NCBI RefSeq assembly: GCF_005160265.1
Contig: NZ_CP039865.1
Location: 3,744,828-3,808,827, forward strand
Length of the DNA: 64,000 bases
Origin: Phreatobacter aquaticus
GTDB taxonomy: Bacteria; Pseudomonadota; Alphaproteobacteria; Rhizobiales; Phreatobacteraceae
Direction of reading: 5' to 3'
Shown here: positions 10,310 through 62,903 of the stretch, piece by piece
Layout: each line of letters begins with the position of its first letter
How positions within the stretch are numbered: the stretch's first letter is position 1
The notes under the pieces: model-generated
What the model saw: the letters and a program-made list of their open reading frames with translations, nothing else
What the model was told of the DNA's origin: nothing
The model's database searches: none
Position numbers and translations under genes: made by a program

Positions 10310-10470
10310 CGAAATTCCGTTCCGGCTCTTGTCGTGGTGATGAGGGTCGTCGGGGGCTCGCGGGCGGGGGAGATCAACTCTGGTCGAAGGCGGCAGGGAG
10401 GCGGAGCGAGCACTCGCTCCTGTTCCACGAAAGCTCCTGCGCGGGTGTCACGCCGGAGAGGACTCGGATC

Positions 10471-46365: not shown

Positions 46366-47220
46366 CTATTCGGCTATACGCCGCAGGACACTAATCCGGC
46401 TGGGATTACCTTCCGCTAGGTAAATATCACCAGTCGAAGTCCCGAACAAACCGTGGGCGCCATTGAGCATCGGCCTGCACCGCCCAAGACGGGCCCCATC
46501 CGGGCCGATCAGGGTCAAACTTGGCACCATATCCGTGACATAGGCCCTGCCCTCCGCATCGCCCCAGATGCCGACCGGCTGGTAGAAGTCGCCCCAGGTC
46601 TGCAGATGCTTGCCTTCGCCGTCGAAAACCTGGACGCGATTCCATGTGCGATCTACAACCGCAACGCGTCCATCCGCGAAAGTCCAGATCGCATGTGGCC
46701 AGACGAATTGACCGTCCTCGGCCCCATGGCTGCCCCAGGTCTGCAGATGCGCGCCATCGGCCGAGAACCGGTGGACATGCGGCGCGCCATAGCCATCCGA
46801 CACATAGATGTCGCCCCAGGCGGAGACCGAGACATCGGTCGGATGGTTGAACGGCGTGCGCGGCTGGCCGCGGGTGCCGAGCTGCCCCAGCCGATCGCCA
46901 TTGGGCGAGAACCAGATCACCTCATGCATGTCACGGTCGACGACGATGATGTTGCCCTGGGGATCGACAGTCATCATGTGGGAATCGGCGATATCCGCCC
47001 CACCCCAGCCGTTGAGATAGCTGCCATCGGGCGCAAGCTCGATCACCCGGGGATCGTCGGGTTGGGTCTGGCTGTCGTGGCGCAGCATGACGAAGACGTG
47101 GTCGCGCGCGTCGACGGTCACATCGGTCACGAAGCCCGCATTCTTCGGCCAGGTGCCGAACGGGCGTTCGATGCGATAGCGGGTGTCGCCGAGTGCGACG
47201 ATCAGATCATGCGAAGCCAC
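46366..47220 (-). CDS. NHL-repeat beta-propeller, PAL-like
   Basis: A six-bladed propeller related to the peptidyl-alpha-hydroxyglycine amidating lyase (PAL) and NHL families. The start is probably GTG at 47220 (GGGAAGAG upstream), giving 284 residues with no signal peptide; an ATG at 47274 would overlap the previous gene by 41 bases. Repeats of the NHL type recur, for example FNHPTDVSVSAWGDIYVSDG, VWPHAIWTFADGRVAVVD and QPVGIWGDAEGRAYVTD, ending LFGTSTGDIYLAEGN. PAL enzymes cleave alpha-hydroxyglycines to an amide and glyoxylate. It is the last gene of the minus-strand catabolic operon. Activity unproven. Confidence 0.75.
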   Translation of the reverse strand: MASHDLIVALGDTRYRIERPFGTWPKNAGFVTDVTVDARDHVFVMLRHDSQTQPDDPRVIELAPDGSYLNGWGGADIADSHMMTVDPQGNIIVVDRDMHEVIWFSPNGDRLGQLGTRGQPRTPFNHPTDVSVSAWGDIYVSDGYGAPHVHRFSADGAHLQTWGSHGAEDGQFVWPHAIWTFADGRVAVVDRTWNRVQVFDGEGKHLQTWGDFYQPVGIWGDAEGRAYVTDMVPSLTLIGPDGARLGRCRPMLNGAHGLFGTSTGDIYLAEGNPSRISVLRRIAE

Positions 47221-47233
47221 GATGCTCTTCCCT

Positions 47234-48145
47234 TCAGGCGGCGAAGGGATGAGTCTTGACCCAATGCTGGGCAATGTCGAGACGGCGCGTCACCCAGACA
47301 CCCTCTTGGCTCTTCACATAATCCAGGAACCGGGCAAGGCCGGCGGCCCGCGCGGGATGGCCGATGAGCCGCATGTGCAGGCCGACCGACATCATCTTCG
47401 GTTGGGTCTTGCCCTCGGCATAGAGCATGTCGAAGGCATCCTTGTGCCATTCGAAATAGTCGGCCGAGGTGCCGAAGAAGCCCGAGCCGAACTTGCCGTC
47501 ATTGTTGACCAGCGAATAGGGCACGACGAGGTGCGGCTTGCCGTCGACCGTCTTCCAATAGGGCAGTTCGTCGTCATAGGCGTCGGAATCGTAGAGGAAG
47601 CCCCCCTCCTCCACCACCAGCTGGCGGGTGTTGACGCTCGGGCCATAGCGGCAGTACCAGCCGAGCGGCCGCTCGCCGACGGTCTCCTTCAGCGAGACGA
47701 TCGCCTTGCGGATGTGCTCACGCTCCTCTTCCTCGCTCAGGAGGTAATGCTTGATCCAGCGCCAGCCGTGGCAGCAGACATCGAAGCCGGAGGCCTTGAT
47801 GGCGGCAGCAGCCTCGGGGTTGCGCTCGATGGCAAGCGCGCAGCCGAACACGGTCATCGGCAGATCGCGCTCCTGGAAGAGCCGCATCAGCCGCCAGAAG
47901 CCGACGCGGCTGCCATAGGCGAACATGCCCTCGCCCGCGAGGTCGCGTCCCTCGACGCCGGTCGGCAGTCCGGTCGCCTCGGTGAGGCCGATCTCGGTAA
48001 AGCCCTCGCCGTCCTGCACCGAGGGCTCGGAGCCCTCCTCGTAGTTCATGACGAAATTGATCGCGATGCGCGCGCCACCCGGCCATTTCGGATCCGGGGG
48101 ATTGGCGCCGTAGCCGATCAGGTCGCGGTCATAGATCGAGGCCAT
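47234..48145 (-). CDS. PuuE-like polysaccharide-deacetylase-family protein (allantoinase type), paralogue 1
   Basis: 303 residues of the NodB-fold carbohydrate esterase 4 superfamily. It follows PuuE, the metal-independent allantoinase, along its length: DLIGYGANPPDPKWPGGARI at the start, NYEEGSE replacing the NodB TFDDG, HGWRWIKHY, EEGGFLYDSDAYDDELPYW, PHLVVPYSL and GLHMRLIGHPARA. Of the three paralogues in this window it is the closest to PuuE. It sits after the ABC permeases in the minus-strand operon (25 bases) and before the PAL-like gene. Ring-opening of allantoin or a similar cyclic ureide is the best guess. Confidence 0.85.
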   Translation of the reverse strand: MASIYDRDLIGYGANPPDPKWPGGARIAINFVMNYEEGSEPSVQDGEGFTEIGLTEATGLPTGVEGRDLAGEGMFAYGSRVGFWRLMRLFQERDLPMTVFGCALAIERNPEAAAAIKASGFDVCCHGWRWIKHYLLSEEEEREHIRKAIVSLKETVGERPLGWYCRYGPSVNTRQLVVEEGGFLYDSDAYDDELPYWKTVDGKPHLVVPYSLVNNDGKFGSGFFGTSADYFEWHKDAFDMLYAEGKTQPKMMSVGLHMRLIGHPARAAGLARFLDYVKSQEGVWVTRRLDIAQHWVKTHPFAA

Positions 48146-48170
48146 GGCCGATTGCTCCTCAAGAATTGCG

Positions 48171-48989
48171 TCAAGCGCTCATGCGCTTGGTCAGTCCGGT
48201 CAGCCGGTCCATGACCACCATCAGGATCAGCGTCGCCAGGATCAGCACGCCGGCAATGGCCGCGATCCGGACGTCGAGCGTCGATTCCATCATGCCCCAC
48301 ATCCGGATCGGCAGCATGGAGGTCCGCGCGTTCGACAGGAACAGCGACACCGGCACATTGTCCATCGACGAGATGAAGGCGAGGAAGGCGCCCGCCGCGA
48401 TGCCAGGCGCGATCAGCGGCAGCGTGATCCGCCGGAACGCATAGAACCGGCTGGCACCGAGATTGGCGGAAGCCTCCAGGAGCGCCGGGTCGAGCTGCGT
48501 CAGGCTTGCGAGCGTCGTACGGAAGATGAACGGCGCGATCACCACCAGATGGCCGGCGATGAGCAGATTGAGCGAGGGCCTGACGCCCAGCACGGAAAAG
48601 AACATCAGCGCTGCCAGTCCGTAGGACAGTGTCGGCAGAACCAGCGGCGACAGGAAGCTTGCCTCCAGCGCCTTGGCCGAGGGCCGGCTCACGCGCGTGA
48701 TGGCAAGAGCCGCCAGAACCGAAAGGACCGAGCCGATCGCGGTCGCAATGCCAGCCACCCACACCGAATTCAGCGCTGCCGTGTGGATCGGGCCGGAACG
48801 GGCGGGATCGAACAGCTCCCGGTACCAGCGGATCGACACGTCCGGCGGCGGGAAGCGGAGCGTCTGCGATGTCGTGAACGAAGTCGCAATCACGATCAGC
48901 ACAGGTCCGATCAGGATGGCGATCGCCAGCGTCGCGATCAGGCCGATCACCCAGGTGTAGGAGATGTCGGCGGGCGTCGAGCGTTGCAT
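48171..48989 (-). CDS. ABC importer permease, PotC type (system A)
   Basis: 272-residue inner-membrane permease with six predicted helices and the ATPase-contacting EAA loop (EASANLGASRFYAFRRITLP). N-terminal FTTSQTLRFPPPDVSIRWY is typical of PotC-like subunits, where the first periplasmic loop reads like this. Partner of the PotB-type permease 10 bases upstream. Belongs to the spermidine/putrescine/opine family of importers, whose substrates range well beyond polyamines. Confidence 0.92.
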   Translation of the reverse strand: MQRSTPADISYTWVIGLIATLAIAILIGPVLIVIATSFTTSQTLRFPPPDVSIRWYRELFDPARSGPIHTAALNSVWVAGIATAIGSVLSVLAALAITRVSRPSAKALEASFLSPLVLPTLSYGLAALMFFSVLGVRPSLNLLIAGHLVVIAPFIFRTTLASLTQLDPALLEASANLGASRFYAFRRITLPLIAPGIAAGAFLAFISSMDNVPVSLFLSNARTSMLPIRMWGMMESTLDVRIAAIAGVLILATLILMVVMDRLTGLTKRMSA

Positions 48990-48999
48990 CGCGATGTCC

Positions 49000-49872
49000 T
49001 CAGGTCGTCTTCGCGAAGCGGCCGAGCCAGCCGAGCGCCATGATGCCGGAGAGCACCGTGAACAGGAGCGTCAGCGAGGCGACCGCCGCGAACGGCCAGT
49101 TATAGACCACCATGGACTGCTGCCAGATCAGCGCCGGCAGATAGACGAGCCTGGCGCCGCCGATCACCGATTGCGAGATGAAGGCGGTGGTGGCCGAGGC
49201 AAAGACCAGCGTCGCGCCGGCGATCCAGCCTGGGAGCGTCAGCGGCAGGATCACCCGGAAGAAGGTCCGCCATTTCGAGCTGCCGAGCGCACGTGACGCG
49301 TCCACCAAGTTCTGGTCCATTTGGTTCATGATGGTGAGCAGCGGCAAGAGCATCAGCGGCATCTCGATCTGCGTCAGCGCGATGACGAGGCCGAGTTCGG
49401 TCTGCAGGAGATTGAGCGGGGTCGCCGTGATGCCGAGCGTCATCAGCGTCTGGTTGATCACCCCCTCGCGGGCGAGGATCACGATCCAGGCGAAGGTGCG
49501 GATCACCACCGATGTCAGAAGCGGCATCAGGATGACGAAGATCAGCACGCGCTGGATGCGCGGGCTGGAGGCGCGGAACACCAGGGCCAGCGGATAGGCG
49601 AGGAAGGTTGTCGCCACCACCGCGAAGACGCCAAGCTTCAGCGTGTCGTAGATCACCTTGAGATAGAAGGCGTCGGTGTAGAATTTGGTCCAGCTGCCGA
49701 AGCCGAGGACCGTCTGCTCGGAATCCGAATAGAGGCTGACCCCGAGCAGGATCGCGAAGGGCGCGGCGAAGAAGATGAGATAGGTCAGGCCGAGCGGCGC
49801 CGCGAGACGCCAGTCGACCTTCTCCATGAGGGCGCCGGCACCGCCGCCGCCCGTCGCCACTGCCCCTGCCAT
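49000..49872 (-). CDS. ABC importer permease, PotB type (system A)
   Basis: 290-residue permease with six helices and the EAA loop DASRALGSSKWRTFFRVILP. Start taken at ATG 49872, 11 bases after the binding-protein stop; ATG 49827 is an alternative that removes a Gly-rich leader of 15 residues. An in-frame opening that continues far upstream lies inside the binding-protein gene and is not coding. Confidence 0.9.
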   Translation of the reverse strand: MAGAVATGGGGAGALMEKVDWRLAAPLGLTYLIFFAAPFAILLGVSLYSDSEQTVLGFGSWTKFYTDAFYLKVIYDTLKLGVFAVVATTFLAYPLALVFRASSPRIQRVLIFVILMPLLTSVVIRTFAWIVILAREGVINQTLMTLGITATPLNLLQTELGLVIALTQIEMPLMLLPLLTIMNQMDQNLVDASRALGSSKWRTFFRVILPLTLPGWIAGATLVFASATTAFISQSVIGGARLVYLPALIWQQSMVVYNWPFAAVASLTLLFTVLSGIMALGWLGRFAKTT

Positions 49873-49883
49873 GCGACTTAGCC

Positions 49884-50912
49884 TTACTTCGTGATCTCTT
49901 TGTTGAACCGCTCGATCCAGGCCGCACGCAGCGGATTGATCTTCGACCAGTCGTGCGTGGCCATTTTCGCCAGCTCGTCCAGCGACTTGATGTCCAGCGT
50001 GTCGACCAGGGTCACGTCCTTGTTGATCGGGATCATGTTGTAGGGCTGGCGCTGCAACAGGGTCTGAACCTCGGCCGAGATCGCCGTGTCCATATACTTG
50101 TAGGCATTGGCGACATTGTCGGCGCCCTTGACGATGTGCAGCGTCGTCTGGAACGTGATCGCGCCCGTCTCCGGCTTGACGAACTCGATGTCGACACCCC
50201 GGCCCTTCAGGATCGCGACCGTGTTGGTGTTGGTGTACATGATGTCGATCTGGCCCTGCTGGAACAGGCCCGGCATGGCGGCGGGAGCCGCGACCGCGGC
50301 AGCCTTGGCGACAGCCTTCTTCAGTTCGGCGAAGACCGGCTCGACATTGGTCTCCGAACCGCCGAACACCTTGGCCATCTCGATGATCGACACGGTGCCG
50401 AAGGTCGTCTGGAAGCCGGTGAGGCCGAGACGCTCGACATAGGGCGACTTGAAGAGATCGGCCCAGCCCTTCGGCGCGGCGGCGAACTTCTTCGGATTGT
50501 AGGCGATGCCGACGACCTGCGCATTGCAGGTCACGCCGTGCGAGGTGATCAGTCCAGTGGGAACCTTCGGGGCATTGCTCAGCTTGGAAGCATCGATCGG
50601 CTCGAACAGTCCGGCGGCCTGGGCAGCGGCGGCCGGACCCGGATCCAGCACGAAGCAATCGAACGGCGGCACGCCGCGGGCGGCACGCACCTTGGCGACC
50701 TGATCGACCGCGAACAGCGAGTCGAAGGCGACATCGATATCGGCGGCCTTCTTCAGCGCCGGCGCGACGACCCCGCGATAGGCCTCTTCCCAGGTGCCGG
50801 GATAGATCGCGGCGGTCAGGGTGCCTGCGGCATGGCCAGTTCGCGGCAGGATGGCGGCTGCGCCAAGCGCACCGGCGCCAATCATCAGGTCTCGGCGGTT
50901 GAGGATGGTCAT
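49884..50912 (-). CDS. ABC importer solute-binding protein (system A)
   Basis: 342-residue periplasmic binding protein, PotD-like class. The signal has a twin-arginine look (NRRDLMIGAGALGAAA, cleavage near GHAAG), suggesting Tat export. Then TLTAAIYPGTWEEAYRG, GVTCNAQVVGIAYNPKKFAA and FVKPETGAITFQTTLHIVKG, the standard order for this class. The ligand is unknown; the downstream deacetylase suggests a ureide or cyclic amide. Second gene of the operon, 22 bases after the ATPase gene. Confidence 0.92.
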   Translation of the reverse strand: MTILNRRDLMIGAGALGAAAILPRTGHAAGTLTAAIYPGTWEEAYRGVVAPALKKAADIDVAFDSLFAVDQVAKVRAARGVPPFDCFVLDPGPAAAAQAAGLFEPIDASKLSNAPKVPTGLITSHGVTCNAQVVGIAYNPKKFAAAPKGWADLFKSPYVERLGLTGFQTTFGTVSIIEMAKVFGGSETNVEPVFAELKKAVAKAAAVAAPAAMPGLFQQGQIDIMYTNTNTVAILKGRGVDIEFVKPETGAITFQTTLHIVKGADNVANAYKYMDTAISAEVQTLLQRQPYNMIPINKDVTLVDTLDIKSLDELAKMATHDWSKINPLRAAWIERFNKEITK

Positions 50913-50934
50913 TCGTGTCTCCTGGGCTTTGGGC

Positions 50935-52038
50935 TTATGCGGGATGAAACAGGGCCGGGCGGGCGTGGGGGCCCAACCCGCAGAAATGGGAGCCGGCGAC
51001 GCCGAAGCCCTCGCCGGGGCGGCGGGGCGCGGCGACCTTGATCGCTTCGCCGCGCGGTCCGGTTGCGTCGTGGATCAGGTCGCCACCGATCGGCAGGCTG
51101 AGCTTGAGGTCGACCGGGAACCGGTCGGCGCCCGGTTGGTCCACCAGCAGCAATTGTTCGGGCCGGACCGAGACGACGACGGCATCGCCCACCGTGAAGG
51201 CATGGCGCGAGGCAATCGACCAGACGGCCCCGTTGTCGAGCGTCACCACATAGGTCCCGCTCTCGACGCCGGTCACGCGGCCCGGCAGCAGATTGCTCGA
51301 TCCGATGAAATTGTTGACGAACAGCGTCTCCGGCTCGTCATAGATCTCGACTGGTGTGCCCAGCTGCTCGATCCGTCCCTGGCTCATCACCGCGATCCGG
51401 TCGGCGATCGACATCGCCTCGTCCTGATCGTGGGTGACCATGATGGCGGTCAGCGCGAACTGACGCTGCAGCCGCTTGATCTCGATCTGCATGTCGAGGC
51501 GCAGGTTCTTGTCGAGGGCGGCGAAGGGCTCGTCGAGCAGCAGGATGCGCGGCCGGATGGCGAGCGCACGGGCAAGCGCCACGCGCTGCTGCTGACCGCC
51601 CGACAATTGCTTCGGCTTGCGGTCGCCGAACGTCTGCATCTGGACGATGCCGAGCATTTCCTTGACCCGCTCGGCCTGCTCATCGCGGCTCATGCCGCGT
51701 GCCGCGAGCCCATAGGCGATGTTGTCCGCCACCGTCATGTGCGGGAACAGCGCGTAGTTTTGGAAGACGATGCCGATCTCGCGGCGGTTCGGCGGCAGCT
51801 CGTCGATCGGCCGGTCGCCGATGATCACCCGGCCATTGGTCTGTTGGATGAAGCCCGCAACGATCCGGAGCAGCGTGGTCTTGCCGCAGCCGGACGGCCC
51901 GAGCAGCGCGACCAGTTCGCCCCCCTTGACCTTGAGCGTCACATTATCGACCGCGAAGCCCGAGCCATAGCTGTGGGTGACGCCATCCAGCGTCAGCGGC
52001 TGGGCGGATCGGGTCTCGGGCGGAGCCGTCTGGATCAT
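50935..52038 (-). CDS. ABC importer ATPase, PotA type (system A)
   Basis: 367 residues from ATG 52038. Walker A GPSGCGKTT at 47-55, Q loop VFQNYALFPH, signature LSGGQQQR at 145-152, Walker B ILLLDEP, then a C-terminal TOBE-like regulatory domain (SVRPEQLLLVDQ). No good Shine-Dalgarno is visible, and the frame stays open to 52242, so the start is the weakest point; the shorter form matches the family. First gene of the minus-strand operon, divergent from the amidase. Confidence 0.92.
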   Translation of the reverse strand: MIQTAPPETRSAQPLTLDGVTHSYGSGFAVDNVTLKVKGGELVALLGPSGCGKTTLLRIVAGFIQQTNGRVIIGDRPIDELPPNRREIGIVFQNYALFPHMTVADNIAYGLAARGMSRDEQAERVKEMLGIVQMQTFGDRKPKQLSGGQQQRVALARALAIRPRILLLDEPFAALDKNLRLDMQIEIKRLQRQFALTAIMVTHDQDEAMSIADRIAVMSQGRIEQLGTPVEIYDEPETLFVNNFIGSSNLLPGRVTGVESGTYVVTLDNGAVWSIASRHAFTVGDAVVVSVRPEQLLLVDQPGADRFPVDLKLSLPIGGDLIHDATGPRGEAIKVAAPRRPGEGFGVAGSHFCGLGPHARPALFHPA

Positions 52039-52201
52039 CGGGGGCGGTTCACATCGCAGCCGCCGGAATGGCGTCTGGTCCCGACAGGTAGCAACCGCCG
52101 TGCCACTTGCCGCAGGGGCAGGTGCCGGACGGGCCGGGTGCCAAGCGGCCTCCGCCTTGCTAAGCACGGGGTCCAAGCGAACCCGCGGAATGGAGACTGC
52201 A

Positions 52202-53590
52202 ATGACTGAAACCGACAGCTCCTGGCCGTCGATCGACGCCATCGCCGCCGCGGTGAACGCCGGCCAGTCCTCCGCTCGTCAGCAGGTCGAAAAGGCACTC
52301 AGCCTGATCGATCGCCTCAATCCGGCGCTCAATGCCTTCATTCTGGTCGATCGGCAGGAGGCGCTGAAACAGGCGGACGCGGTCGATCGGCGCATCGCGG
52401 CGGGCGAGCGCCCTGCCCTTGCCGGCGTGCCGGTGACGATCAAGGACAATATCTGGGTCGGCGGCTGGCGGGTCACGCAAGGATCCAATCTTTTCAAGGG
52501 CTTCGTAGCGCCTGAGGATGCCGTGGCGGTCGAGCGCCTGCGCCTGGCCGGCGCCATCATTGTCGGCATCACCAACACGTCGGAATTCGCCGCCAAGGGT
52601 CAGACGCGCAATCTGCTTCACGGCGCAACGCGCCATCCCCTGAACCCGGACCTCACGCCCGGCGGCTCGTCGGGCGGGCCGGTTGCGGCGGTCGCCAGCG
52701 GCATGGTGCCCTTCGCGCTCGGCACCGATGCCGGCGGCTCCAGCAGGCGGCCTCCCGCCCATACCGGTCTTGTCGGATTCAAGCCGTCCTTCGGGGCAAT
52801 CCCCTATGGTCCGGGCTTCGAGGAGCCGTTCTTCGGCATTTCCTGCAACTGCCCGATCACTCGCACGGTGGGCGAGGCAGCCCTTGCCTTTGAGGCGATG
52901 GCCGGCCCCGACGGGCGCGATCCGCACTCGGCTCTTGTGGAGCCTGCGGTCGATCGCGACCCCGGCACGCTGCGGATTGCATACAGTCCGAAATGGGGTC
53001 TCGACGTGCCTGTCGACCCCATCGTTGCCCGGCGCGTCTCCGATGCCGTCGACAAGCTGCGCTTCGCCGGGCTCGACATCATCGACATCGATCCCGTCTG
53101 GCCGGCAGGCGCCGCCGAAACCGGTCTCAATGCCATCCAGCATGCGGGCCTGGCCGCGCTCTATCGCGACGCCTGGCGGGCCGATCCGTCGCGCATCGAT
53201 CCCGACCTCGGGGCCCAGATCGACACCGGCGCGACCTATTCGGGCGTGGATGTCGCAAACGCACTGCTTCTCTCGGAAAGTGTTGCAATATCAGCAGCTA
53301 AATGGTTCCGCGACAATGCGCTGGACCTGGCCATCGGGCCGACCACGCCGTGTACATCCTGGTCGATCGACAAGCTGGGACCGGACACGATCGACGGGGT
53401 GAATGTCGGCCCGCGCGGTCACGCGGTCTTCACGCCGCTGTTCAACCATGCCCGCCAGCCGGCGATCTCCATCCCCTGCGGAACCGATGAGGCCGGTCTG
53501 CCCATCGGCCTGCAGATCGTCGCGCCGCGCCTGAAGGACCGCCGACTGCTGGAAGCGGCCAGCCTCCTGGAGGCGGTTTTCACCCGCTGA
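52202..53590 (+). CDS. Amidase signature-family hydrolase
   Basis: 462 residues, cytoplasmic. Catalytic Lys81 (VTIKDN), the cis-Ser in GGSSGGP (154-160) and nucleophile Ser180 in GTDAGGSSRRP complete the Ser-cisSer-Lys triad. Start ATG 52202 has GGAG 7 bases upstream; an ATG at 52190 is possible. Relatives include allophanate hydrolase, aryl-acylamidases and mandelamide hydrolase; no C-terminal allophanate domain is present. First gene of the plus-strand catabolic operon, 194 bases before the system B binding protein, so a second promoter may lie between. Confidence 0.9.
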   Translation: MTETDSSWPSIDAIAAAVNAGQSSARQQVEKALSLIDRLNPALNAFILVDRQEALKQADAVDRRIAAGERPALAGVPVTIKDNIWVGGWRVTQGSNLFKGFVAPEDAVAVERLRLAGAIIVGITNTSEFAAKGQTRNLLHGATRHPLNPDLTPGGSSGGPVAAVASGMVPFALGTDAGGSSRRPPAHTGLVGFKPSFGAIPYGPGFEEPFFGISCNCPITRTVGEAALAFEAMAGPDGRDPHSALVEPAVDRDPGTLRIAYSPKWGLDVPVDPIVARRVSDAVDKLRFAGLDIIDIDPVWPAGAAETGLNAIQHAGLAALYRDAWRADPSRIDPDLGAQIDTGATYSGVDVANALLLSESVAISAAKWFRDNALDLAIGPTTPCTSWSIDKLGPDTIDGVNVGPRGHAVFTPLFNHARQPAISIPCGTDEAGLPIGLQIVAPRLKDRRLLEAASLLEAVFTR

Positions 53591-53630
53591 CCCCGCCCCC
53601 CAAGGCACGCCTGCCTAATTGATGTGCTGC

Positions 53631-53664
53631 CGGATGCACCAGTCGGATGCACATTTTTTGTGCA
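53631..53664. promoter_or_regulatory. Direct repeat and small palindrome ahead of system B
   Basis: CGGATGCAC occurs at 53631-53639 and 53644-53652 (13-base period), running into TGCACATTTTTTGTGCA, an inverted repeat at 53648-53664. In a GC-rich region this looks like a regulator site for the importer operon starting at 53785. No other signal was seen in 53591-53784. Confidence 0.4.
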
Positions 53665-53784
53665 GAATCCTGATGCCTTCTGACGAACCCCTTCTGCGCT
53701 CTGGCGGCACGCCTCTTGCTGAATGGGATGCCATCTCAGGCCGGCGACCTTTCCCGGCCAAGGCAGAGGTGGAGGACCATAGGC

Positions 53785-54843
53785 ATGACGAGCAACACCC
53801 GTTCGGACGGTATCAATCGCCGCACCATTCTCGCAGGGTTCGGCGCGGGCACTGTTGCCTCGCTGGGCGCCCCTCAGATCCTGCGGGCCCAGACGCGTGA
53901 ACTGGTCGTCGGTGGCGCCGCCAGCCACAAGGCCTGGGTCGAGACCCATGTCCAGCCGCTGTTCGAGAAGAAGTACAACGCCAAGCTGACCTTCGAGGGC
54001 ACCCGCTCGCTGGTGAACCTCGAGAAGATGCAGAAGAACAAGGACCGGCCCTATCTCTCGGTCGTCCAGATGGACGATCCGGTGATGATCCTGGCGGTCA
54101 AGGAAGGCCTGCTCGATCCGCTGACCGCGGCCAAGGCGCCGAACCTCGCCAAGCTGAAGCCGGGCACGGTCCACATGGACGGCCAGTGGGCCAACTATCT
54201 CCAGCCCTGGCAGGGCATCGCCTACAATACCAATGTCATCAAGGAGCCGCCGACCTCCTGGGCCGATGCCTGGGACCCGAAGTACAAGGGTCGCATCATC
54301 ATCCCGTCGCTGCAGAACACCGAAGGCCTGGCCAATCTGTTCGTGGCCTCGAGCATCGCGACCGGCAAGCCGATGGCGGAAGCCATGCGCGACACCGAAT
54401 CCGGCTTCAAGAAGCTGGTCTCGCTCAAGCCCAACCTGCTCACCGTCTATAACCAGATGCCCCAGGCCTTCAGCCTGCTGGAGCAGGGCGAGGCGCACAT
54501 GATCGTTGGCGCCCTCTCCTCCTTCGCGCTTCAGCGCCGGCTCGACGGCGCGCCGCTCGGCCTTGCCGCGCCGAAGGAAGGCATCTTCCCGGTCCCTTCG
54601 GGCATCGCCGTGGTCAAGGGCGGCCCGAACGCCGATCTCGCCTTCGCCTATGTCAACGAGCTGCTCGGCGCCGAGGTCCAGAACAAGATCGCTCCGCCGA
54701 CCTTCGCACTGCCGACGAATGTCGACGTGCCGATCCCGGCCGGCATGCCGACCAATGCCACCATGCACACGATCGACTGGGCCTTCGTCGCCGAGAATCG
54801 CAATTCATGGGTCCAGCGCTGGGACCGCGAGATGTCGATGTGA
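53785..54843 (+). CDS. ABC importer solute-binding protein (system B)
   Basis: 352-residue binding protein of the PotD-like class with a twin-arginine-type leader (NRRTILAGFGAGTVASL, cleavage near LRAQT). Start ATG 53785 has GGAGG 9 bases upstream. Mature opening ELVVGGAASHKAWVETHVQP, then YLQPWQGIAYNTNVIKEPPT and VPSGIAVVKGGPNADLAFAY. Only distantly similar to the system A protein, so the two importers probably differ in ligand. Confidence 0.92.
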   Translation: MTSNTRSDGINRRTILAGFGAGTVASLGAPQILRAQTRELVVGGAASHKAWVETHVQPLFEKKYNAKLTFEGTRSLVNLEKMQKNKDRPYLSVVQMDDPVMILAVKEGLLDPLTAAKAPNLAKLKPGTVHMDGQWANYLQPWQGIAYNTNVIKEPPTSWADAWDPKYKGRIIIPSLQNTEGLANLFVASSIATGKPMAEAMRDTESGFKKLVSLKPNLLTVYNQMPQAFSLLEQGEAHMIVGALSSFALQRRLDGAPLGLAAPKEGIFPVPSGIAVVKGGPNADLAFAYVNELLGAEVQNKIAPPTFALPTNVDVPIPAGMPTNATMHTIDWAFVAENRNSWVQRWDREMSM

Positions 54844-54915
54844 TCATCGCCACTGGCGATTGACGTGCAGGACGGGTCCGGCTTGGTGCCGGACCCGCGA
54901 AAGGCGGCGGGTGGC

Positions 54916-55995
54916 ATGACCGACAGCATGACGTTTCTCGACATCCAGGGCGCCGCCAAGACCTTTGGCGGAACCACGGTTCTGGACGGTGTCGATCTCA
55001 CCGTGGCGCGCGGCGAGTTCATCTCCCTGCTCGGCCCATCCGGTTGCGGCAAGACCACGCTCTTGCGCATTGTCGCGGGATTGCTGACCGGCGACCGCGG
55101 CACGGTGACCCTCGACGGCGAGGAAATCTCCCGCAAGCCGCCCCATCACCGCGATGTCGGCGTGGTGTTCCAGAGCTACGCGCTGTTCCCCCATCTCACC
55201 GTGGCAGAGAACGTCGCTTTCGGCCTCGAGGCCCGCGGCGCGCCCAAGGCCGAGATCGAGGCGACCGTGCGCCGCTTCCTCGACCTTGCCCATATGGCGA
55301 GCTTCGCCGATCGCTCGGTGAAGATGCTGTCGGGTGGCCAGCAGCAGCGTGTGGCCGTCGCCCGCGCGCTCGCCGTCCAGCCGAAACTGCTGCTGCTCGA
55401 CGAGCCGTTCTCGGCGCTCGACCGGAAGCTGCGCGAAACCATGCAGATCGAGCTGAAGCGCCTGCTGCGCGAGCTCAACATCACCGCCATCTTCGTCACC
55501 CATGACCAGGACGAGGCCCTCGTCATGTCCGACCGGATCGCGGTGATGAACCGCGGCCAGATCGAGCAACTGGCCGATCCTGAGACCATCTATCGGCGGC
55601 CGGCCACACCGTTCGCGCTGGAATTCGTCGGTCTGTCGACGCGCATCGCCGGCAAGGTCGCCGAGGCGACGCCGGATGGCGTGGTGGCGATCGACACGGC
55701 CTATGGGCGCATCCGGGCCAACGGGCGCTACACGCCCGGCAGCCCGGTCCTCATCGGCATTCGCCCCGAGCGCATGGCCTTCGGTCCGAACGCGGCCGAG
55801 AACACCATCAAGGTGACGCTCACCGACATCGTCTTCCAGGGCTCGCGCATCCAGGCCCATTTCGCCTCCAGCGAGGACAGGCCGATCCAGATCGAGAGTT
55901 CGGAGACCGTTCCGGCAGGGCTAAGCCCCGGCGGCGAGACGGAGGTGTCCTGGAACATCGCGGACACCCTGCTCTATCCGGATGTCGCGGCATGA
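54916..55995 (+). CDS. ABC importer ATPase, PotA type (system B)
   Basis: 359 residues from ATG 54916. Walker A GPSGCGKTT at 40-48, VFQSYALFPHLTVAENV, signature LSGGQQQR at 138-145, Walker B LLLLDEP, and a TOBE-like C-terminal domain (GIRPERMAFGPNA). The frame is open to 54865 but the family begins here. Its stop overlaps the next start by 4 bases (ATGA). Confidence 0.93.
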   Translation: MTDSMTFLDIQGAAKTFGGTTVLDGVDLTVARGEFISLLGPSGCGKTTLLRIVAGLLTGDRGTVTLDGEEISRKPPHHRDVGVVFQSYALFPHLTVAENVAFGLEARGAPKAEIEATVRRFLDLAHMASFADRSVKMLSGGQQQRVAVARALAVQPKLLLLDEPFSALDRKLRETMQIELKRLLRELNITAIFVTHDQDEALVMSDRIAVMNRGQIEQLADPETIYRRPATPFALEFVGLSTRIAGKVAEATPDGVVAIDTAYGRIRANGRYTPGSPVLIGIRPERMAFGPNAAENTIKVTLTDIVFQGSRIQAHFASSEDRPIQIESSETVPAGLSPGGETEVSWNIADTLLYPDVAA

Positions 55996-56828
55996 GCGCT
56001 GCAGCCGCACGAGACCGCACCGGCTGGCTCGCGGTCCCCGCCGTCGCCTATCTCGGCCTGGCCTATGCGATCCCGCTTGCCTTTCTGCTGGCCCGCAGCG
56101 TCACCGGGCCGGATGGCTTCACGCTGGCGCTGTTCGCCAAGTTCTTCGCCGACCCCTTCTCCTGGCGGGTGATCGGCAACACGCTGCGCATCGGCCTGCT
56201 GACCACCCTGCTCTGCCTTGCCATCGGCTATCCGGTGGCATTGGCCATGGCCAGGTCGAAGGGCATCGTGCAGGTGATCCTGCTCACCGCGATCATCCTG
56301 CCCTTGTCGATCGGCGTCGTGGTCAAGGCCTTCGCCTGGCAGATCGTGCTCCGCCGTGACGGCGTGGTCTCGCAGGCGCTGGTTGCCTCCGGCATCTGGA
56401 GCGAGCCGCAACGGCTCCTGTTCACCGAAGGCGGCCTGGTGGTCGGCGCGGCAAACGTCTTCCTGCCTTTCATGATCCTGCCGATCTACTCGGTGGTGAA
56501 ACTGATCGACCCGCGCCTGACGGAAGCCGGCGCGACGCTTGGCGCAAGCCCGTTCTACCGCTTCCGCAAGATCCTGCTCCCGCTGACTCTTCCCGGCATC
56601 ATTTCGGGCGTCGCCTTCGTCTTCTCCATGTCGGTCTCGATGTTCGTCATCCCGAGCCTGTTGATCGGCGACCGGTTCCAGATGCTGGCGACGCTGACCG
56701 GCCGTGCCTTCCTCCTGATGCGGGATGAGGCGCTCGGCTCCACCACAGCCGTCGTGCTGCTGATCCTGGCGCTCTCCATCGTCGTCGGCTCGACCTGGAT
56801 CGCCAAACGGCTGGGGAAATCGGCATGA
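55992..56828 (+). CDS. ABC importer permease, PotB type (system B)
   Basis: 278-residue inner-membrane permease, six helices, EAA loop EAGATLGASPFYRFRKILLP. ATGA overlap with both the ATPase gene upstream and the second permease downstream, so synthesis of the three is coupled. Confidence 0.92.
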   Translation: MSAAAARDRTGWLAVPAVAYLGLAYAIPLAFLLARSVTGPDGFTLALFAKFFADPFSWRVIGNTLRIGLLTTLLCLAIGYPVALAMARSKGIVQVILLTAIILPLSIGVVVKAFAWQIVLRRDGVVSQALVASGIWSEPQRLLFTEGGLVVGAANVFLPFMILPIYSVVKLIDPRLTEAGATLGASPFYRFRKILLPLTLPGIISGVAFVFSMSVSMFVIPSLLIGDRFQMLATLTGRAFLLMRDEALGSTTAVVLLILALSIVVGSTWIAKRLGKSA

Positions 56829-57625
56829 CCGCGCTCGAACGCATCACATCCGCCCTTGTCTGGATCGTCGCGGGATGCGCGGTGATCTTCCTGCTGACGC
56901 CGCTGGTCGTCACGATCGCCGTCTCCTTCGGCTCCTCGGCGGTGTTCTCGCTGCCGCCGCCGCAATGGTCGATGCGCTGGTACAACCAGCTGCCCGCGAC
57001 CCGCGGCCTCTGGCCCTCGCTCGTCACATCGCTGCAGGTGGCGACCTTCTCGACGCTGGTGTCTCTCGTGCTCGGCACGCTCTGCGCCATCGCCCTGGTG
57101 CGCGGGCGTTTCGGCGGGCGCGACGCCATTGCGACCTTCCTGGTCTCACCGCTCATGCTGCCGGGCCTGGTGGTCGGCATCGCCATGCTGCAGGGCTTCA
57201 AGGCCGTAGGGCTCCGCGACGCCTATCCGAGCCTGCTGGTGGCGCATGTCGTGATCACCATGCCCTATGTCGTGCGCACCGTACTCGCCGCCCTCAGCCT
57301 GTTCGATTTCACGCTCATCGACGCGGCCCGGACCCTCGGCTGCTCCTATGTCAGGGCACTCTGGAAGGTTCTGGTGCCAGCGCTCGCGCCTGCCTTCCTC
57401 ACATCGGCCATGTTCGCTTTCCTGGCGTCCATGGATAATTATCCGATCTCGATCTTCTTCACCGATGCCTGGACCAAGACCTTGCCCATCCAGATGCTGC
57501 AATTCGTCGAGGAACGGCCCGACCCGACCATTGCCGCAATTTCGGCGGGTCTGATCCTGCTGGCGGTTCTGGCGATGATCATTGGCGACAGACTGGTGGG
57601 GCTCCGGCGCCTGGCCGATTTCTGA
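56825..57625 (+). CDS. ABC importer permease, PotC type (system B)
   Basis: 266-residue permease, six helices, EAA loop DAARTLGCSYVRALWKVLVP, PotC-type first loop (FSLPPPQWSMRWYNQ). The deacetylase paralogue 2 gene starts 1 base after its stop. Confidence 0.92.
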   Translation: MTALERITSALVWIVAGCAVIFLLTPLVVTIAVSFGSSAVFSLPPPQWSMRWYNQLPATRGLWPSLVTSLQVATFSTLVSLVLGTLCAIALVRGRFGGRDAIATFLVSPLMLPGLVVGIAMLQGFKAVGLRDAYPSLLVAHVVITMPYVVRTVLAALSLFDFTLIDAARTLGCSYVRALWKVLVPALAPAFLTSAMFAFLASMDNYPISIFFTDAWTKTLPIQMLQFVEERPDPTIAAISAGLILLAVLAMIIGDRLVGLRRLADF

Positions 57626-57626
57626 C

Positions 57627-58592
57627 ATGACCTTGTCCTTGCCCTTTGCCCTGCCCCCGACCGACCGTGACTTTCGCGGCTACGGCGCCAATGAGCCGGC
57701 TATTCGCTGGCCGAACGGCGCGCGGCTCGCGGTGTCCGTCGTCGTCAATGTCGAGGAAGGCGCGGAACTGTCGGTCGCCGCCGGCGACGAGGCCAACGAG
57801 TTCATCTATGAGGCCGTCGAGCGCGTCGAGGGCAGCCGCGACCTCTGCATGGAGAGCCATTACGAATATGGCACCAGGCGCGGCTGGCCGCGCATCCGCA
57901 AGGCGCTCGCCGATCATGGCGTGAAGGCGACCCTCAATTCCTGCGGACGGGCGCTCGCCTATTCGCCCTGGCTGGCCCGCGAGGCGGTTGCCGACGGCCA
58001 CGAGGTCTCGGCCCATGGCTGGCGCTGGGAGCGGCAGGTCGGCATGGAGGAGGCCCGCGAGCGCCAGGTGATCGGCCGCGCGGTCGCGGCGATCGCGGCG
58101 AGTGCCGGCACGCCGCCGGTCGGCTGGCACACGCGCTCGGCCACCTCGGTCAACACCCGCCGCCTGCTCGTCGAACAGGGCGGGTTTCTCTACGATTCCA
58201 ATGCCTACAACGACGACGTTCCCTATCTGCATCACGAGGCCGGACGGGATCTCGTGATCCTTCCCTATGCTTTCGACACCAATGACATGCGCTTCCAGCC
58301 GGGCGGCGGCTTCATCCAGGCCGAGGATTTCGCGCGCTATTGCATCGCGACCTTCGACCGCCTCTATGCCGAGGGCGGTGACGCGCCGCGCATGATGTCG
58401 ATCGGCCTGCACCTGCGCATCATCGGGCGCCCTGCCCGTATCGGCGGACTGGAGGCTTTTCTCGCCCATGCGGCATCGAAGGCGGGCGTCTGGTTCGCCA
58501 GGCGCGACGAGATCGCCAAGGCCTGGCGCGCAGGCCTCGGTCTTGAAGCATGGTCGCCCCGGCCCGCTCTCTCCGCCTTCGAGGTGGGCTGA
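57627..58592 (+). CDS. PuuE-like polysaccharide-deacetylase-family protein, paralogue 2
   Basis: 321 residues. Same architecture as paralogue 1: DFRGYGANEPAIRWPNGARL, NVEEGAE at the modified catalytic loop, SAHGWRWERQV, EQGGFLYDSNAYNDDVPYL, and GLHLRIIGRPARIGGL. N-terminal 12 residues and the C-terminal tail are extra. The metal ligands of true NodB deacetylases are not in place, as in PuuE. TGATG overlap with racemase 1, with which it forms the first of two tandem modules. Substrate unknown; a cyclic amide is plausible. Confidence 0.82.
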   Translation: MTLSLPFALPPTDRDFRGYGANEPAIRWPNGARLAVSVVVNVEEGAELSVAAGDEANEFIYEAVERVEGSRDLCMESHYEYGTRRGWPRIRKALADHGVKATLNSCGRALAYSPWLAREAVADGHEVSAHGWRWERQVGMEEARERQVIGRAVAAIAASAGTPPVGWHTRSATSVNTRRLLVEQGGFLYDSNAYNDDVPYLHHEAGRDLVILPYAFDTNDMRFQPGGGFIQAEDFARYCIATFDRLYAEGGDAPRMMSIGLHLRIIGRPARIGGLEAFLAHAASKAGVWFARRDEIAKAWRAGLGLEAWSPRPALSAFEVG

Positions 58593-59341
58593 TGCGCATT
58601 CTGGTCGCCAATCCGAACACCACCGAGGCCGTGACGGCCAAGCTGATGGCGGCGGGCGCGGCGGTTGCCGATCCGCGCACCGTTCTGGTGCCGATGACCG
58701 CACACCGCGGCGTGCCCTATATCGCGACGAGGGCCGACGCGGTGATCGGCGGCGCCGTCGCGCTGGAAATGCTGGCCGAAGCCCATACGACCGTCGATGC
58801 CGCCATCATCGCGGCCTTCGGCGATCCCGGCCTCGGCGGCGCCCGCGAACTGTTCGACATCCCTGTTGTCGGCATGGCGGAAGCCGCCATGCTCTCGGCC
58901 TGCATGCTCGGCCGCTCCTTCGCCATCGTGACCTTCTCCGGCGGTCTCGTCCCCTGGTACAACGAGTGCCTCGACTGGAACGGGTTGCGCGGCCGCTGCG
59001 CCGGGATTTTCGCGCTGCAGGGAGCCTTCCGCGACATCGCCGATGTCCAGTCGGAGAAGGAAGGCGCTCTCGTCGAACTCGCCGCCAAGGTCGTGATCGA
59101 TCACGCCGCAGACGTCGTGATCCTGGCCGGCGCACCGCTCTCGGGGCTTGCCCAGACCATCCGCGACCGCGTGCCGGTGCCGCTGGTCGATGGCATACAG
59201 GCCGCCGTCAAACAGGCGGAAGCGCTGGTCGCCCTCAAACCCGCCAAGGCGACGACCGGCACCTTCCGGCGGCCAGCCGCCAAGATCTGCACCGGCATTC
59301 CCGATGCGCTCAAGGCCCGTTTCGAGCGCACCGATGGCTGA
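58592..59341 (+). CDS. Asp/Glu/hydantoin racemase-family protein lacking catalytic cysteines (copy 1)
   Basis: 249 residues from ATG 58592 (MRILVANPNTTEAV, the family start). The fold signature is intact: NPNT, IIAAFGDPGLGGARE, PVVGMAEAAM, and FAIVTFSGGLVPWY. In hydantoin and allantoin racemases a Cys is expected in the AC(F)xDPG block and a second in the GCA block. Here these are Ala75 and Gly180 (LAGAPLSG). A two-base racemisation is therefore doubtful; a binding, isomerase or lyase role (compare maleate isomerase and arylmalonate decarboxylase relatives) is possible. Overlaps its neighbours on both sides. Confidence 0.8.
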   Translation: MRILVANPNTTEAVTAKLMAAGAAVADPRTVLVPMTAHRGVPYIATRADAVIGGAVALEMLAEAHTTVDAAIIAAFGDPGLGGARELFDIPVVGMAEAAMLSACMLGRSFAIVTFSGGLVPWYNECLDWNGLRGRCAGIFALQGAFRDIADVQSEKEGALVELAAKVVIDHAADVVILAGAPLSGLAQTIRDRVPVPLVDGIQAAVKQAEALVALKPAKATTGTFRRPAAKICTGIPDALKARFERTDG

Positions 59342-60245
59342 TCTCCCAGGGCACCGCGACCTCGTCGGCTATCAGGGGCAATGGCCCCGCTTCACCTGGC
59401 CCAATGGTGCCCGGCTCGCCGTCTCGATCGCCGTCAATTTCGAGGAAGGCGCGGAATGGCAGGTCGGCGACGGTGATCCCGTCTCCGAGCGCATGGGTGA
59501 GGTCCTGAGCGTCGTCGAGCCGGGACGACGCGACATGGGCCAGGAGCAGATCTTCGCCTATGGAATGCGCGCCGGGCTCTGGCGCATGCTGGGCGCGCTG
59601 GAACGCCAGAAACTGCCCGCAACCTTCCTGTTCTGCGGCCAGGCTGTCGAACGCGCGCCGGCTCTCGCGAGGGCTGCGACCGATGGCGGCCACGAGGCCG
59701 CCGTCCATGGCTGGCGCTGGCGTCCCCATGCCGATTACGAGACCGAGGCCGCAGAGGCCGCCGATCTAGACCGGTCCATTGCGGTGATCGAGGAGGCCTG
59801 CGGCACCCGTCCGATCGGCTTCTTCTGCCGTGGCTCGGAAAGTCCGACAACCCGCAAGCTGCTGATCGAACGTGATTTTCTCTATACGTCGAATGCCTTC
59901 GACGACGACCTGCCCTATTGGGACCGGTCAGGAAAGCGCCCCCTGATCGTCGTGCCCTATGCGCTCGACAGCAACGACATGAAGTTCTTCCACCCCAATG
60001 GCTTCGTGCGCGCTGGTGACATGGTCGACTATGTCGACGACGCGCTTGAGACTCTGCTGGCCGAAGCCAGAGCCGGTCACACGCGACTGCTCAATATCGG
60101 CTTCCATCTGCGCATCGTCGGACGGCCCGGACGCTTTGCGGCCTTCGCGCGCATTCTGGAGCGGCTGTCGGACCTCGGCGACCAGATCTATGTCGGCAGG
60201 CGCGACGACATCGCCCGCGCCTTCCAGGCGGCGGTGCCGTCATGA
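59334..60245 (+). CDS. PuuE-like polysaccharide-deacetylase-family protein, paralogue 3 (divergent)
   Basis: 303 residues from ATG 59334, which overlaps the racemase 1 stop by 8 bases. Motifs parallel paralogues 1 and 2: RDLVGYQGQWPRFTWPNGAR, NFEEGAE, VHGWRWRPH, FLYTSNAFDDDLPYW, and GFHLRIVGRPGRFAAF. It departs from the other two at several otherwise constant points (GFFCRGSESPTTRKL instead of the NTR block, and IERDFLY for EEGGFLY), so its substrate probably differs. Overlaps racemase 2 by 4 bases. Confidence 0.8.
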   Translation: MADLPGHRDLVGYQGQWPRFTWPNGARLAVSIAVNFEEGAEWQVGDGDPVSERMGEVLSVVEPGRRDMGQEQIFAYGMRAGLWRMLGALERQKLPATFLFCGQAVERAPALARAATDGGHEAAVHGWRWRPHADYETEAAEAADLDRSIAVIEEACGTRPIGFFCRGSESPTTRKLLIERDFLYTSNAFDDDLPYWDRSGKRPLIVVPYALDSNDMKFFHPNGFVRAGDMVDYVDDALETLLAEARAGHTRLLNIGFHLRIVGRPGRFAAFARILERLSDLGDQIYVGRRDDIARAFQAAVPS

Positions 60246-60919
60246 GGCTCTTGCTGGTCAATCCCAACACCAACGCAACCACGACCGACGCCATGGTGGC
60301 GATCGCGCAGGACTCGAGCCCCGACAACCAGTTCGTCGGCCTGACGGCCCCGTTCGGCGTGCCGCTGATCACCGGACCGGACGAATTGGCCATCGCCGCC
60401 GACGCAGTCGCAACCGCGCTCGCCATGCGCATGCCGTCCGGCATCAGCGCGGTGATCATCGCCGCCTTTGGCGATCCAGGCCTCGAAGCGGCGGCCGCCA
60501 GCATCCGCGTGCCTGTGGTCGGCATTGCCGAAGCAGCGATGGCCGAGGCCGGTCACGGCGACCGGCGCTTCGCGGTGGTCACGACGACGCCTGATCTGGT
60601 CGCCTCGATTGCCGGTCTTGCCGGCCGCTATGGCCATGCCGAGACCTTTCTCGGCACCATGCTGACCAAGGGCGATGTCCATCACGTCATGGCGGACAAG
60701 GAGCGGCTGGTCCAGGCGCTGGAAGCCGCCTGCCACGAGGCGATCGCGACACTGGGGGCCGAAGCGATCGTCATCGGCGGCGGACCGCTTGCAGCAGCGG
60801 CGCGCGTGCTTGCAAGCCGCCTGCCAGTCCCACTGGTCGAGCCGATCCCCGCCGCCGTCCGGCTGGCCGAACGGCGGGTCATGTTCCAGCAGCACAAGGG
60901 CGGACGCCGCGCCGAGTGA
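60242..60919 (+). CDS. Asp/Glu/hydantoin racemase-family protein lacking catalytic cysteines (copy 2)
   Basis: 225 residues, last gene of the plus-strand operon. MRLLLVNPNTNATTT start, VIIAAFGDPGLEAAA, PVVGIAEAAM, FAVVTTTPDLVASI and AIVIGGGPLAAAA. As in copy 1, both expected catalytic Cys positions are Ala75 and Gly180, although overall the copies differ clearly and the C-terminus is shorter. Convergent with dctM across 15 bases. Confidence 0.8.
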   Translation: MRLLLVNPNTNATTTDAMVAIAQDSSPDNQFVGLTAPFGVPLITGPDELAIAADAVATALAMRMPSGISAVIIAAFGDPGLEAAAASIRVPVVGIAEAAMAEAGHGDRRFAVVTTTPDLVASIAGLAGRYGHAETFLGTMLTKGDVHHVMADKERLVQALEAACHEAIATLGAEAIVIGGGPLAAAARVLASRLPVPLVEPIPAAVRLAERRVMFQQHKGGRRAE

Positions 60920-62215: not shown

Positions 62216-62228
62216 GATGGGTCCGGTC

Positions 62229-62801: not shown

Positions 62802-62873
62802 TCCTTCGGTCAGTGCACCACCGGCGACCGGCGCGATGCGCGGTCAGCGGGCGGACTTGTCAGTGGAGAGGAT

Positions 62874-62894
62874 GGGGCGGCACGAGGCCGCCCC
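62874..62894 (-). promoter_or_regulatory. Hairpin between dctP and dctQ
   Basis: GGGGCGGC-ACGAG-GCCGCCCC: an 8-bp perfect stem starting 9 bases past the dctP stop on the minus strand, without a T-run. Probably a 3' stabiliser or partial terminator that gives more binding protein than permease. Confidence 0.55.
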
Positions 62895-62903
62895 GTCTTG
62901 AGG

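Follow-up and report, generated by a model that had tools for sequence, protein, structure and literature searches.

Two gene modules that probably serve the breakdown of small cyclic ureides or imides lie together at a divergent locus of Phreatobacter aquaticus

Within a 64,000-nucleotide stretch of the Phreatobacter aquaticus genome (contig NZ_CP039865.1, positions 3,744,828 to 3,808,827; hereafter the window), we examined 15 genes that form two divergent operons around positions 52039-52201 in the window's list of open reading frames. The left operon comprises L_ATP, L_SBP, PotB, PotC, PuuE_A, and PAL, and the right operon comprises AMD, R_SBP, R_ATP, PotB, PotC, PuuE_B, RAC_1, PuuE_C, and RAC_2. 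These encode two importers, three PuuE-type ring hydrolases, an amidase, a PAL-like propeller, and two racemase-fold proteins that lack the catalytic cysteines (Cys-less). On balance, we consider it probable that two catabolic modules have come together in this region, each directed at small cyclic ureides or imides, that is, allantoin- or hydantoin-like rings. Module 1 consists of the amidase, a PotABCD-type ATP-binding cassette (ABC) importer, PuuE_B, and RAC_1; module 2 consists of PuuE_C-RAC_2, divergent from L_ATP-L_SBP-PotB-PotC-PuuE_A-PAL. The gene positions and families given by an initial annotation of this DNA held up, with Pfam applied to all 15 genes and NCBIfam to 10 of the 15, and the shared region is indeed 163 bases long.

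Separate modules and their co-occurrence in other genomes

We searched 121 genomes of the order for PAL and RAC_1 and fetched the surroundings of the matches. Three genomes of the same genus (G019, G065, and G101) carry PuuE_C-RAC_2 directly divergent from L_ATP-L_SBP-PotB-PotC-PuuE_A-PAL (loci L108, L110, and L112). AMD-R_SBP-R_ATP-PotB-PotC-PuuE_B-RAC_1 is a separate operon in G101, on the same contig and ~109 kb edge to edge from module 2 (L111, L112), while RAC_1 alone was recognized at the corresponding place of module 1 in G019 and G065 (L107, L109). From these arrangements, we conclude that, in the window, module 1 has one part of module 2 on either side of it. The initial annotation had taken tight gene overlaps as a sign of one coordinated pathway. 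Packing is tight from R_ATP onward, where the successive gaps are -4, -4, +1, -1, -8, and -4 bp, but not for AMD and R_SBP, with gaps of 194 bp (AMD to R_SBP) and 72 bp (R_SBP to R_ATP). As related genomes carry the modules apart, with PuuE_C-RAC_2 beside the left operon and the rest elsewhere or lost, the overlaps do not prove one pathway, and the single-pathway reading is weakened. Two Hyphomicrobiaceae contigs (L023 and L027) have a left-type importer, an amidase, RAC_1, and PuuE_A (69-73% identity) in one same-strand run, which links the parts functionally.

The combination of importer, interchangeable ring hydrolase, amidase, and Cys-less racemase-fold protein is widespread in Alpha- and Betaproteobacteria and is also found on plasmids. 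We surveyed the best 80 loci of 177 RAC_1 relatives, chosen by similarity to RAC_1. A ring hydrolase was present in the fetched flank of 71 of the 80 loci (PuuE-type in 43, hydantoinase-type in 33, both in 5), an amidase in 36, and a PotABCD-type importer in 43. Across these loci, PuuE genes were concentrated near RAC_1, with 43 at up to 3 kb and 3 at 6-9.5 kb, and so were importer genes, with 84 and 3 at the same distances. For all 11 genera that appear in record titles (Alpha- and Betaproteobacteria, titled metagenome bins included), at least one RAC_1 locus had a ring hydrolase, and the co-occurrence on which the initial annotation had staked its reading thus extends beyond close strains. 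Among the 121 genomes of the order, RAC_1 was detected in 19 at E ≤ 1e-40; of the 18 besides the source, 11 showed a PuuE, hydantoinase, or ATZ-type ring hydrolase in the fetched stretch, 3 an amidase only, and 4 neither. A weak PuuE_C match in G024 (25%) was left out of the ring-hydrolase count, and the RAC genes of L113 and L131, both missed by gene calling of the loci, were read directly.

PuuE-type and hydantoinase-type hydrolases belong to different families and mostly substitute for each other beside RAC_1 and an amidase. Such alternation would be expected if both fill one ring-opening slot. Both versions stand together on a Salipiger plasmid, where importer-PuuE-amidase-RAC lies next to hydantoinase-RAC-TRAP-amidase (TRAP, tripartite ATP-independent periplasmic transporter), and a Defluviimonas plasmid has the hydantoinase version as TRAP-RAC-amidase-hydantoinase.

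The Klebsiella oxytoca plasmid pIron_OXY (L140), typed as mobilizable, carries a hydantoinase, two RAC-fold proteins, an ABC importer, GntR, and oxidoreductases. An arylmalonate-decarboxylase/EutA-like protein was found near RAC_1 in 16 of the 80 loci, for example at L088:5732-6463 (-) and L146:7194-7907 (-), the latter falling under both NCBIfam cut-offs (64.8 of 225 and 73.2 of 318 bits). ABC, TRAP, and tripartite tricarboxylate (TTT) transporters adjoin arylmalonate decarboxylases according to the consulted section of PMC4996985.

Active sites of the enzymes and their urate-type neighbors

PuuE_A, PuuE_B, and PuuE_C share with PuuE allantoinase (solved as 3CL6) the NodB fold family, high similarity, and a metal-free HGxRW motif. 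All three have HGWRW, vs HGYRW in PuuE and HGYSH in HpPgdA, and the second metal histidine of the HxxxH stretch of the NodB family is gone; PuuE is described as non-metal-dependent (PMC10967932, in excerpt). They differ from it in adjoining importers, an amidase, RAC, or PAL, not urate oxidase, and none reached the PuuE equivalog cut-off of TIGR03212 (Table 1), which a positive control, the PuuE in the purine/urate cluster of genome G037 (L131), passed with 521.4 bits. Five PuuE_A-type relatives scored 393-406 bits and three PuuE_B-type relatives 297-344 bits. In the tree, the canonical PuuE clade held four rows (solved PuuE-type proteins and that of G037) with support of 100/98, and the three window proteins fell outside it, with the PuuE_C clade supported at 100/100, the PuuE_B clade at 94/98, and PuuE_A weakly joined at 60/8. 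PuuE_A is the closest of the three to PuuE allantoinase: P. fluorescens PuuE matched them at 222-366 bits (366 for PuuE_A), vs 44-54 bits for HpPgdA, and the canonical G037 PuuE is 52% identical to PuuE_A. Beyond PuuE_B and PuuE_C, the source genome, a single contig of 4,974,952 bases, has no match above 31% identity to PuuE_A, and a canonical PuuE was thus not found in it; six hydantoinase-family matches were.

RAC_1 resembles allantoin racemases in fold. With its model (predicted local distance difference test score, pLDDT, 88.2) as query, Foldseek ranks 1-5 were all allantoin racemase (query TM-score, TMq, 0.85-0.86), with 32-34% identity in structural alignment; RAC_2 was assigned to the family by PF01177 alone. 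The catalytic residues of the Klebsiella allantoin racemase KpAllR (3QVJ) are Cys79 and Cys184 (PMC12661438, in excerpt). At these places, RAC_1 has A75 and G180, and RAC_2 likewise has Ala and Gly. Ala and Gly also occupy both places in 81 of 81 proteins (RAC_1 and 80 relatives) and in the five RAC_2-type relatives found, and neither place holds a cysteine in any of the 18 other genomes of the order, with Val at the first in G037 (read by eye). RAC_1 keeps the Asn12 place and has Phe at that of Thr119. The label "Cys-less racemase-like" in the initial annotation was therefore correct and applies throughout the clade examined, but the hydantoin racemization it ascribed to RAC_1 and RAC_2 is unsupported by their sequences, as both catalytic cysteines are lost. 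In the solved P. fluorescens chain (PfAllR, 5LFD), which is possibly not wild type, the first place aligns with Gly and the second with Cys; of the two cysteines, the solved allantoin racemases thus share just the second. The source genome has two further racemase-like genes with both cysteines, one of them beside a hydantoinase gene.

The RAC tree used every sixth of the 80 RAC_1 relatives, and four arylmalonate-decarboxylase-like (AMDase-like) rows were dropped. Decay of the RAC gene was rejected on account of the Ala and Gly at the cysteine places in 81 of 81 proteins. G037 provided a single case of a Cys-less RAC relative in a canonical urate run, between GntR and HIUase in PuuE-PuuD-GntR-RAC-HIUase (L131:5997-10923). 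A role of RAC as a substitute OHCU decarboxylase was also rejected, with two OHCU decarboxylase matches elsewhere in G037 and two in the source genome.

The PAL-like protein was compared with PAL of PAM. Twelve homologues were aligned, and H94, Y157, H189, R204, and H269 (first-row numbering; 99, 162, 194, 209, and 274 of the 302-residue reading) were invariant. Going by match end-points to PAM chains, H99 stands at 585, and Y162 and R209, counted from other ends, stand at 654 and 706; H194 falls one place off 690, and H274 lies outside the alignment. We take 585 and 690 to be among the zinc histidines of PAL. The catalytic dyad is Tyr651/Arg703 in the human enzyme, with 706 in rat (PMC10303134, in excerpt), and rat Tyr654 was placed by the same offset. 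As far as these alignment end-points tell, the places of His585, Tyr654, and Arg706 are kept, and the PAL-like protein seems to retain PAL's catalytic residues. In its single-sequence model, of modest pLDDT (66.2), Foldseek placed PAL 3fvz at rank 3 with a TMq of 0.68, the highest of the 50 matches listed; TRIM-type NHL domains outscore 3fvz by sequence. The surroundings differ from those of PAL, as no monooxygenase partner or peptide context was seen and the gene adjoins ring hydrolases and importers. Counting the one in the window, 19 PAL matches were examined, and 12 had a ring hydrolase nearby: 10 of 13 in the order (9 of 12 without the window's own; none in G106, G050, and G070) and 2 of 6 in further genomes of the class, outside the order.

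PAL can be tied to urate-derived ureides, as a second PAL operon in the source genome carries HIUase-like, OHCU-decarboxylase, and hydantoinase genes. This minus-strand run contains OHCU decarboxylase (131.8 bits, cut-off 96.25), TctCBA, a binding protein, the HIUase-like gene, hydantoinase (523.6 bits, cut-off 393.25), a right-type PotABCD-type importer, and PAL'; the Tct names were read from sequence by eye. Together with the ring hydrolases and amidases of the RAC_1 loci, this linkage lends support to the substrate class that the initial annotation had suggested. HIUase-like genes also occur near a left-type importer and an amidase in 11 Bradyrhizobium loci and in G035, G070, and G106. The divergent HIUase-like proteins of Bradyrhizobium (e.g., L090:16082-16417, -) end FRGA or FRGS and stand beside a PotABCD-type importer and amidases. 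The window itself holds a purine cluster ~36 kb off (7851-10815, -), with an allantoate amidohydrolase (512.8 bits, cut-off 479), a PuuD-type urate oxidase (399.9, cut-off 26.9), and a canonical HIUase ending YRGS (122, cut-off 87.45), and no adjoining allantoinase or OHCU decarboxylase. AllA-type ureidoglycolate lyase (PF04115) had no match in the source genome in a search whose control matched in E. coli and which left ureidoglycolate dehydrogenase and amidohydrolase routes aside; allantoicase (PF03561) had none either, but its control matched nowhere.

The importer proteins scored against NCBIfam fell short of the named transporter models. L_ATP scored below the NCBIfam cut-offs (best PhnT2, 368 of 457.7 bits; PotA, 354 of 482), L_SBP far below (PotD, 25.6 of 582; PotF, 30.8 of 636; PhnS, 58 of 395), and R_SBP likewise (PhnS, 71 of 395; PotD, 38.2 of 582), so the polyamine importer equivalogs PotD (both binding proteins), PotF (L_SBP), and PotA (L_ATP) were not reached. 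Solved relatives of L_SBP include agropine-, polyamine-, and phosphonate-type binders. AMD reached the cut-off of none of 25 listed NCBIfam models. It qualifies as an amidase-signature enzyme by PF01425 with the Lys and Ser-Ser stretches, its translation holding IKDN, GGSSGG, and GTDAGGSSR, to which we presume the catalytic triad belongs.

Proposed pathway and competing explanations

We propose that the binding protein of each module hands a cyclic ureide or imide to its own PotABCD-type ABC importer, and that the metal-free PuuE-type hydrolases of each module would then open the ring at an amide bond. The Cys-less RAC, encoded directly after its hydrolase (PuuE_B-RAC_1, PuuE_C-RAC_2), may act on the ring or on the opened form. 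The module 1 amidase would remove the freed amide or ureido nitrogen. Module 2 would contribute PuuE_A and the PAL-like metal lyase, which most likely splits a ureidoglycolate-type carbinolamide to glyoxylate and a urea or an amide; the glyoxylate release named by the initial annotation is, for PAL, something we infer. It is possible, and we suggest this tentatively, that the RAC_1 and RAC_2 clades perform an undescribed Asp/Glu-racemase-superfamily reaction on ureides with the partner hydrolase, and that PAL-like propellers are bacterial ureidoglycolate-type lyases replacing AllA, an enzyme described as nickel-dependent and urea-releasing (PMC3793230, in excerpt). Were this so, the lyase of peptide-hormone amidation would have a bacterial counterpart in ureide breakdown, in place of AllA.

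Several known systems come close to this arrangement. The nearest precedent we found is Aspergillus HxnM/HxnN, in which a PuuE-superfamily ring hydrolase, a cyclic imidase, is followed by an amidase; that pathway is a eukaryotic nicotinate route, its HxnM is described as nearest to HpPgdA, and neither RAC nor PAL is mentioned in the consulted portion of PMC9304392. Pseudomonas sp. CBB1 has a caffeine C-8 oxidation cluster in which urate-type rings undergo HIUase-like, OHCU-decarboxylase-like, and allantoinase-like steps; a review of this route, as excerpted, calls a racemase and the final steps that yield glyoxylate and ureas undiscovered or poorly understood (PMC4408171). The genes described here would supply candidates for those steps, though the link is one of analogy alone, and no oxidase of that route was sought nearby. 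Our search of the open-access literature, with most subscription journals outside its scope, found no description of the combination of importer, ring hydrolase, amidase, and Cys-less RAC; PMC4016543 and PMC6983136, in excerpt, had no direct bearing on the locus. The hyu clusters consist of hydantoinase, racemase, and carbamoylase. Many RAC_1 relatives lie near a hydantoinase, and both hydantoinases scored pass the D-hydantoinase cut-off. The differences are a RAC without cysteines, an amidase-signature amidase rather than a carbamoylase, and, in the window, a PuuE-type enzyme replacing hydantoinase; among the 15 genes, no hydantoinase, Cys-type racemase, or carbamoylase of the hyu kind was present.

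The left module might instead be an ordinary allantoin route, with PuuE_A as the missing allantoinase for the enzymes at 7851-10815, an importer that takes up allantoin, and PAL replacing ureidoglycolate lyase. The purine cluster without an adjoining allantoinase, the failure to find a canonical PuuE or an AllA-type match in the genome, and the retention of module 2 in the three same-genus genomes examined would fit. We nevertheless think it rather unlikely: PuuE_A and its five relatives score under the cut-off that the G037 protein clears, the canonical PuuE clade is separate, any of the six hydantoinase-family matches could serve instead, and the ureidoglycolate dehydrogenase and amidohydrolase routes lay outside the AllA search. 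A cyclic-imide route like that of HxnM/HxnN, with PuuE_B and PuuE_C opening an imide to a half-amide from which the amidase frees ammonia and a dicarboxylate, has in its favor that a PuuE-related cyclic imidase and an amide hydrolase follow each other in one pathway (PMC9304392, in excerpt), as well as the composition of module 1 and the alternation of PuuE and hydantoinase beside the amidase. HpPgdA, however, to which HxnM is structurally nearest, is a more distant branch than P. fluorescens PuuE by the bit scores above, and the HIUase-like and OHCU-decarboxylase neighbors of related operons point to ureides, not imides, which leaves this route doubtful.

RAC_1 and RAC_2 could also be true allantoin or hydantoin racemases in which different residues do the work of the two cysteines. 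Fold and sequence are nearest to allantoin racemases, the Gly of the P. fluorescens chain indicates that one of the cysteines is not universal, and the G037 relative lies in a urate cluster. Set against the Ala and Gly in every RAC_1-clade protein, the want of a cysteine at either place in the 18 order genomes, and the two both-cysteine racemase-like genes kept by the same genome, this seems unlikely. We find it very unlikely that the importers take polyamines, opines, or phosphonates, that the enzymes act on unrelated compounds, and that the linkage is incidental. The names of solved importer relatives (agropine permease, MotA, and polyamine-, iron-, and aminoethylphosphonate-binding proteins) and the HpPgdA relatives beside polyamine importers (PMC3084791, in excerpt) would suit it, but neither binding protein reaches the PotD or PhnS cut-off, importer genes crowd close to RAC_1 (within 3 kb), and several genera combine these importer types with these enzymes.

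Several observations weigh against the reading of two ureide or imide modules that we prefer. Its support is made up of gene content, linkage, and residue patterns, from which we infer the rest of the mechanism. The surveyed loci are not independent, with Cupriavidus contributing 12, Bradyrhizobium 12, and Reyranella 11 of the 80, and a ring hydrolase was present in 1 of the 4 loci titled Phreatobacter. Neither ring hydrolase nor amidase was found under our thresholds in 8 of the 80 (L015, L016, L017, L019, L033, L066, L073, and L086), although L033 and L066, both on short contigs, do show a match to an amidase or PuuE. RAC_1 can persist alone, as it stands without a recognized ring hydrolase or amidase in L015, L017, and L019 (titled Phreatobacter), L016, G019, and G065; 4 of the 18 other order genomes with RAC_1 likewise have neither in the fetched stretch. 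PAL was absent from all 80 RAC_1 loci, and among the 12 PAL matches that have a ring hydrolase nearby, half come from the source genome (two) or from the same genus (four). The HIUase-like proteins that we read end FRGA, FRGV, or FRGS, not YRGS, and the three scored were all under the HIUase cut-off. Finally, the G037 case comes from a single genome with 8% contamination, and a search of 385 genomes with its RAC relative gave no match at E ≤ 1e-60, which is a strict limit with no known positive.

Gene coordinates and flanking features

Table 1. Features of the divergent locus and the second PAL operon (window positions unless stated otherwise)
Feature	Position	Strand	Evidence and remarks
L_ATP, left importer ATPase, PotA-like	50935..52038	-	PF00005, 133 bits
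L_SBP, left solute-binding protein, polyamine/opine/phosphonate type	49884..50912	-	PF13416/PF13343
Left permease, PotB-like	49000..49872	-	PF00528; start ATG 49872 (Pfam query began three codons upstream)
Left permease, PotC-like	48171..48989	-	PF00528
PuuE_A, metal-free NodB-fold ring hydrolase	47234..48145	-	TIGR03212, 399.2 of 424.6 bits; HGWRW
PAL-like six-bladed propeller	46366..47274	-	NHL repeats; first TTG 47274, likelier start GTG 47220
Intergenic region common to the divergent operons	52039..52201		163 bases
AMD, amidase-signature amidase	52202..53590	+	PF01425, 306 bits over 29-450; alternative upstream ATG 52190
R_SBP, right solute-binding protein	53785..54843	+	PF13343, 96.6 bits
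R_ATP, right importer ATPase with TOBE domain	54916..55995	+	PF00005, PF08402
Right permease, PotB-like	55992..56828	+	PF00528
Right permease, PotC-like	56825..57625	+	PF00528
PuuE_B	57627..58592	+	TIGR03212, 299.4 of 424.6 bits; relatives adjoin RAC_1
RAC_1, Cys-less Asp/Glu/hydantoin-racemase-fold protein	58592..59341	+	PF01177, 145 bits
PuuE_C	59334..60245	+	TIGR03212, 271.6 of 424.6 bits; forms a pair with RAC_2 in G019, G065, and G101
RAC_2, second Cys-less racemase-fold protein	60242..60919	+	PF01177, 126.6 bits
Second PAL operon	L121 8820-18000 and L144 2-3241, ~3.604-3.616 Mb of source genome	-	HIUase-like protein ends FRGV

Gaps in the left operon are 22 bp between L_ATP and L_SBP, 11 bp to PotB (from its ATG), and then 10 and 25 bp. 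PAL would overlap PuuE_A by 41 bp from the TTG and follow it after 13 bp from the GTG; the later start is favored, as PAL is called 22-25 bp downstream of PuuE_A in the three same-genus genomes. Neither a sigma-70-like promoter nor a terminator was found at 51900-52300. The intergenic region has no inverted repeat and three short two-copy direct repeats, possibly by chance. The window had no Rfam match at the gathering threshold and no tRNA.

Convergent with RAC_2 lies a TRAP transporter (DctM, DctQ, and DctP; 60935-63902, -). We rejected it as part of the module, as G019, G065, and G101 do not have it next to RAC_2, and the TRAP genes of L018, L020, and L021 are just 27-36% identical. Just downstream of PAL, 45412-46221 (-) encodes a protein with response-regulator receiver domains.

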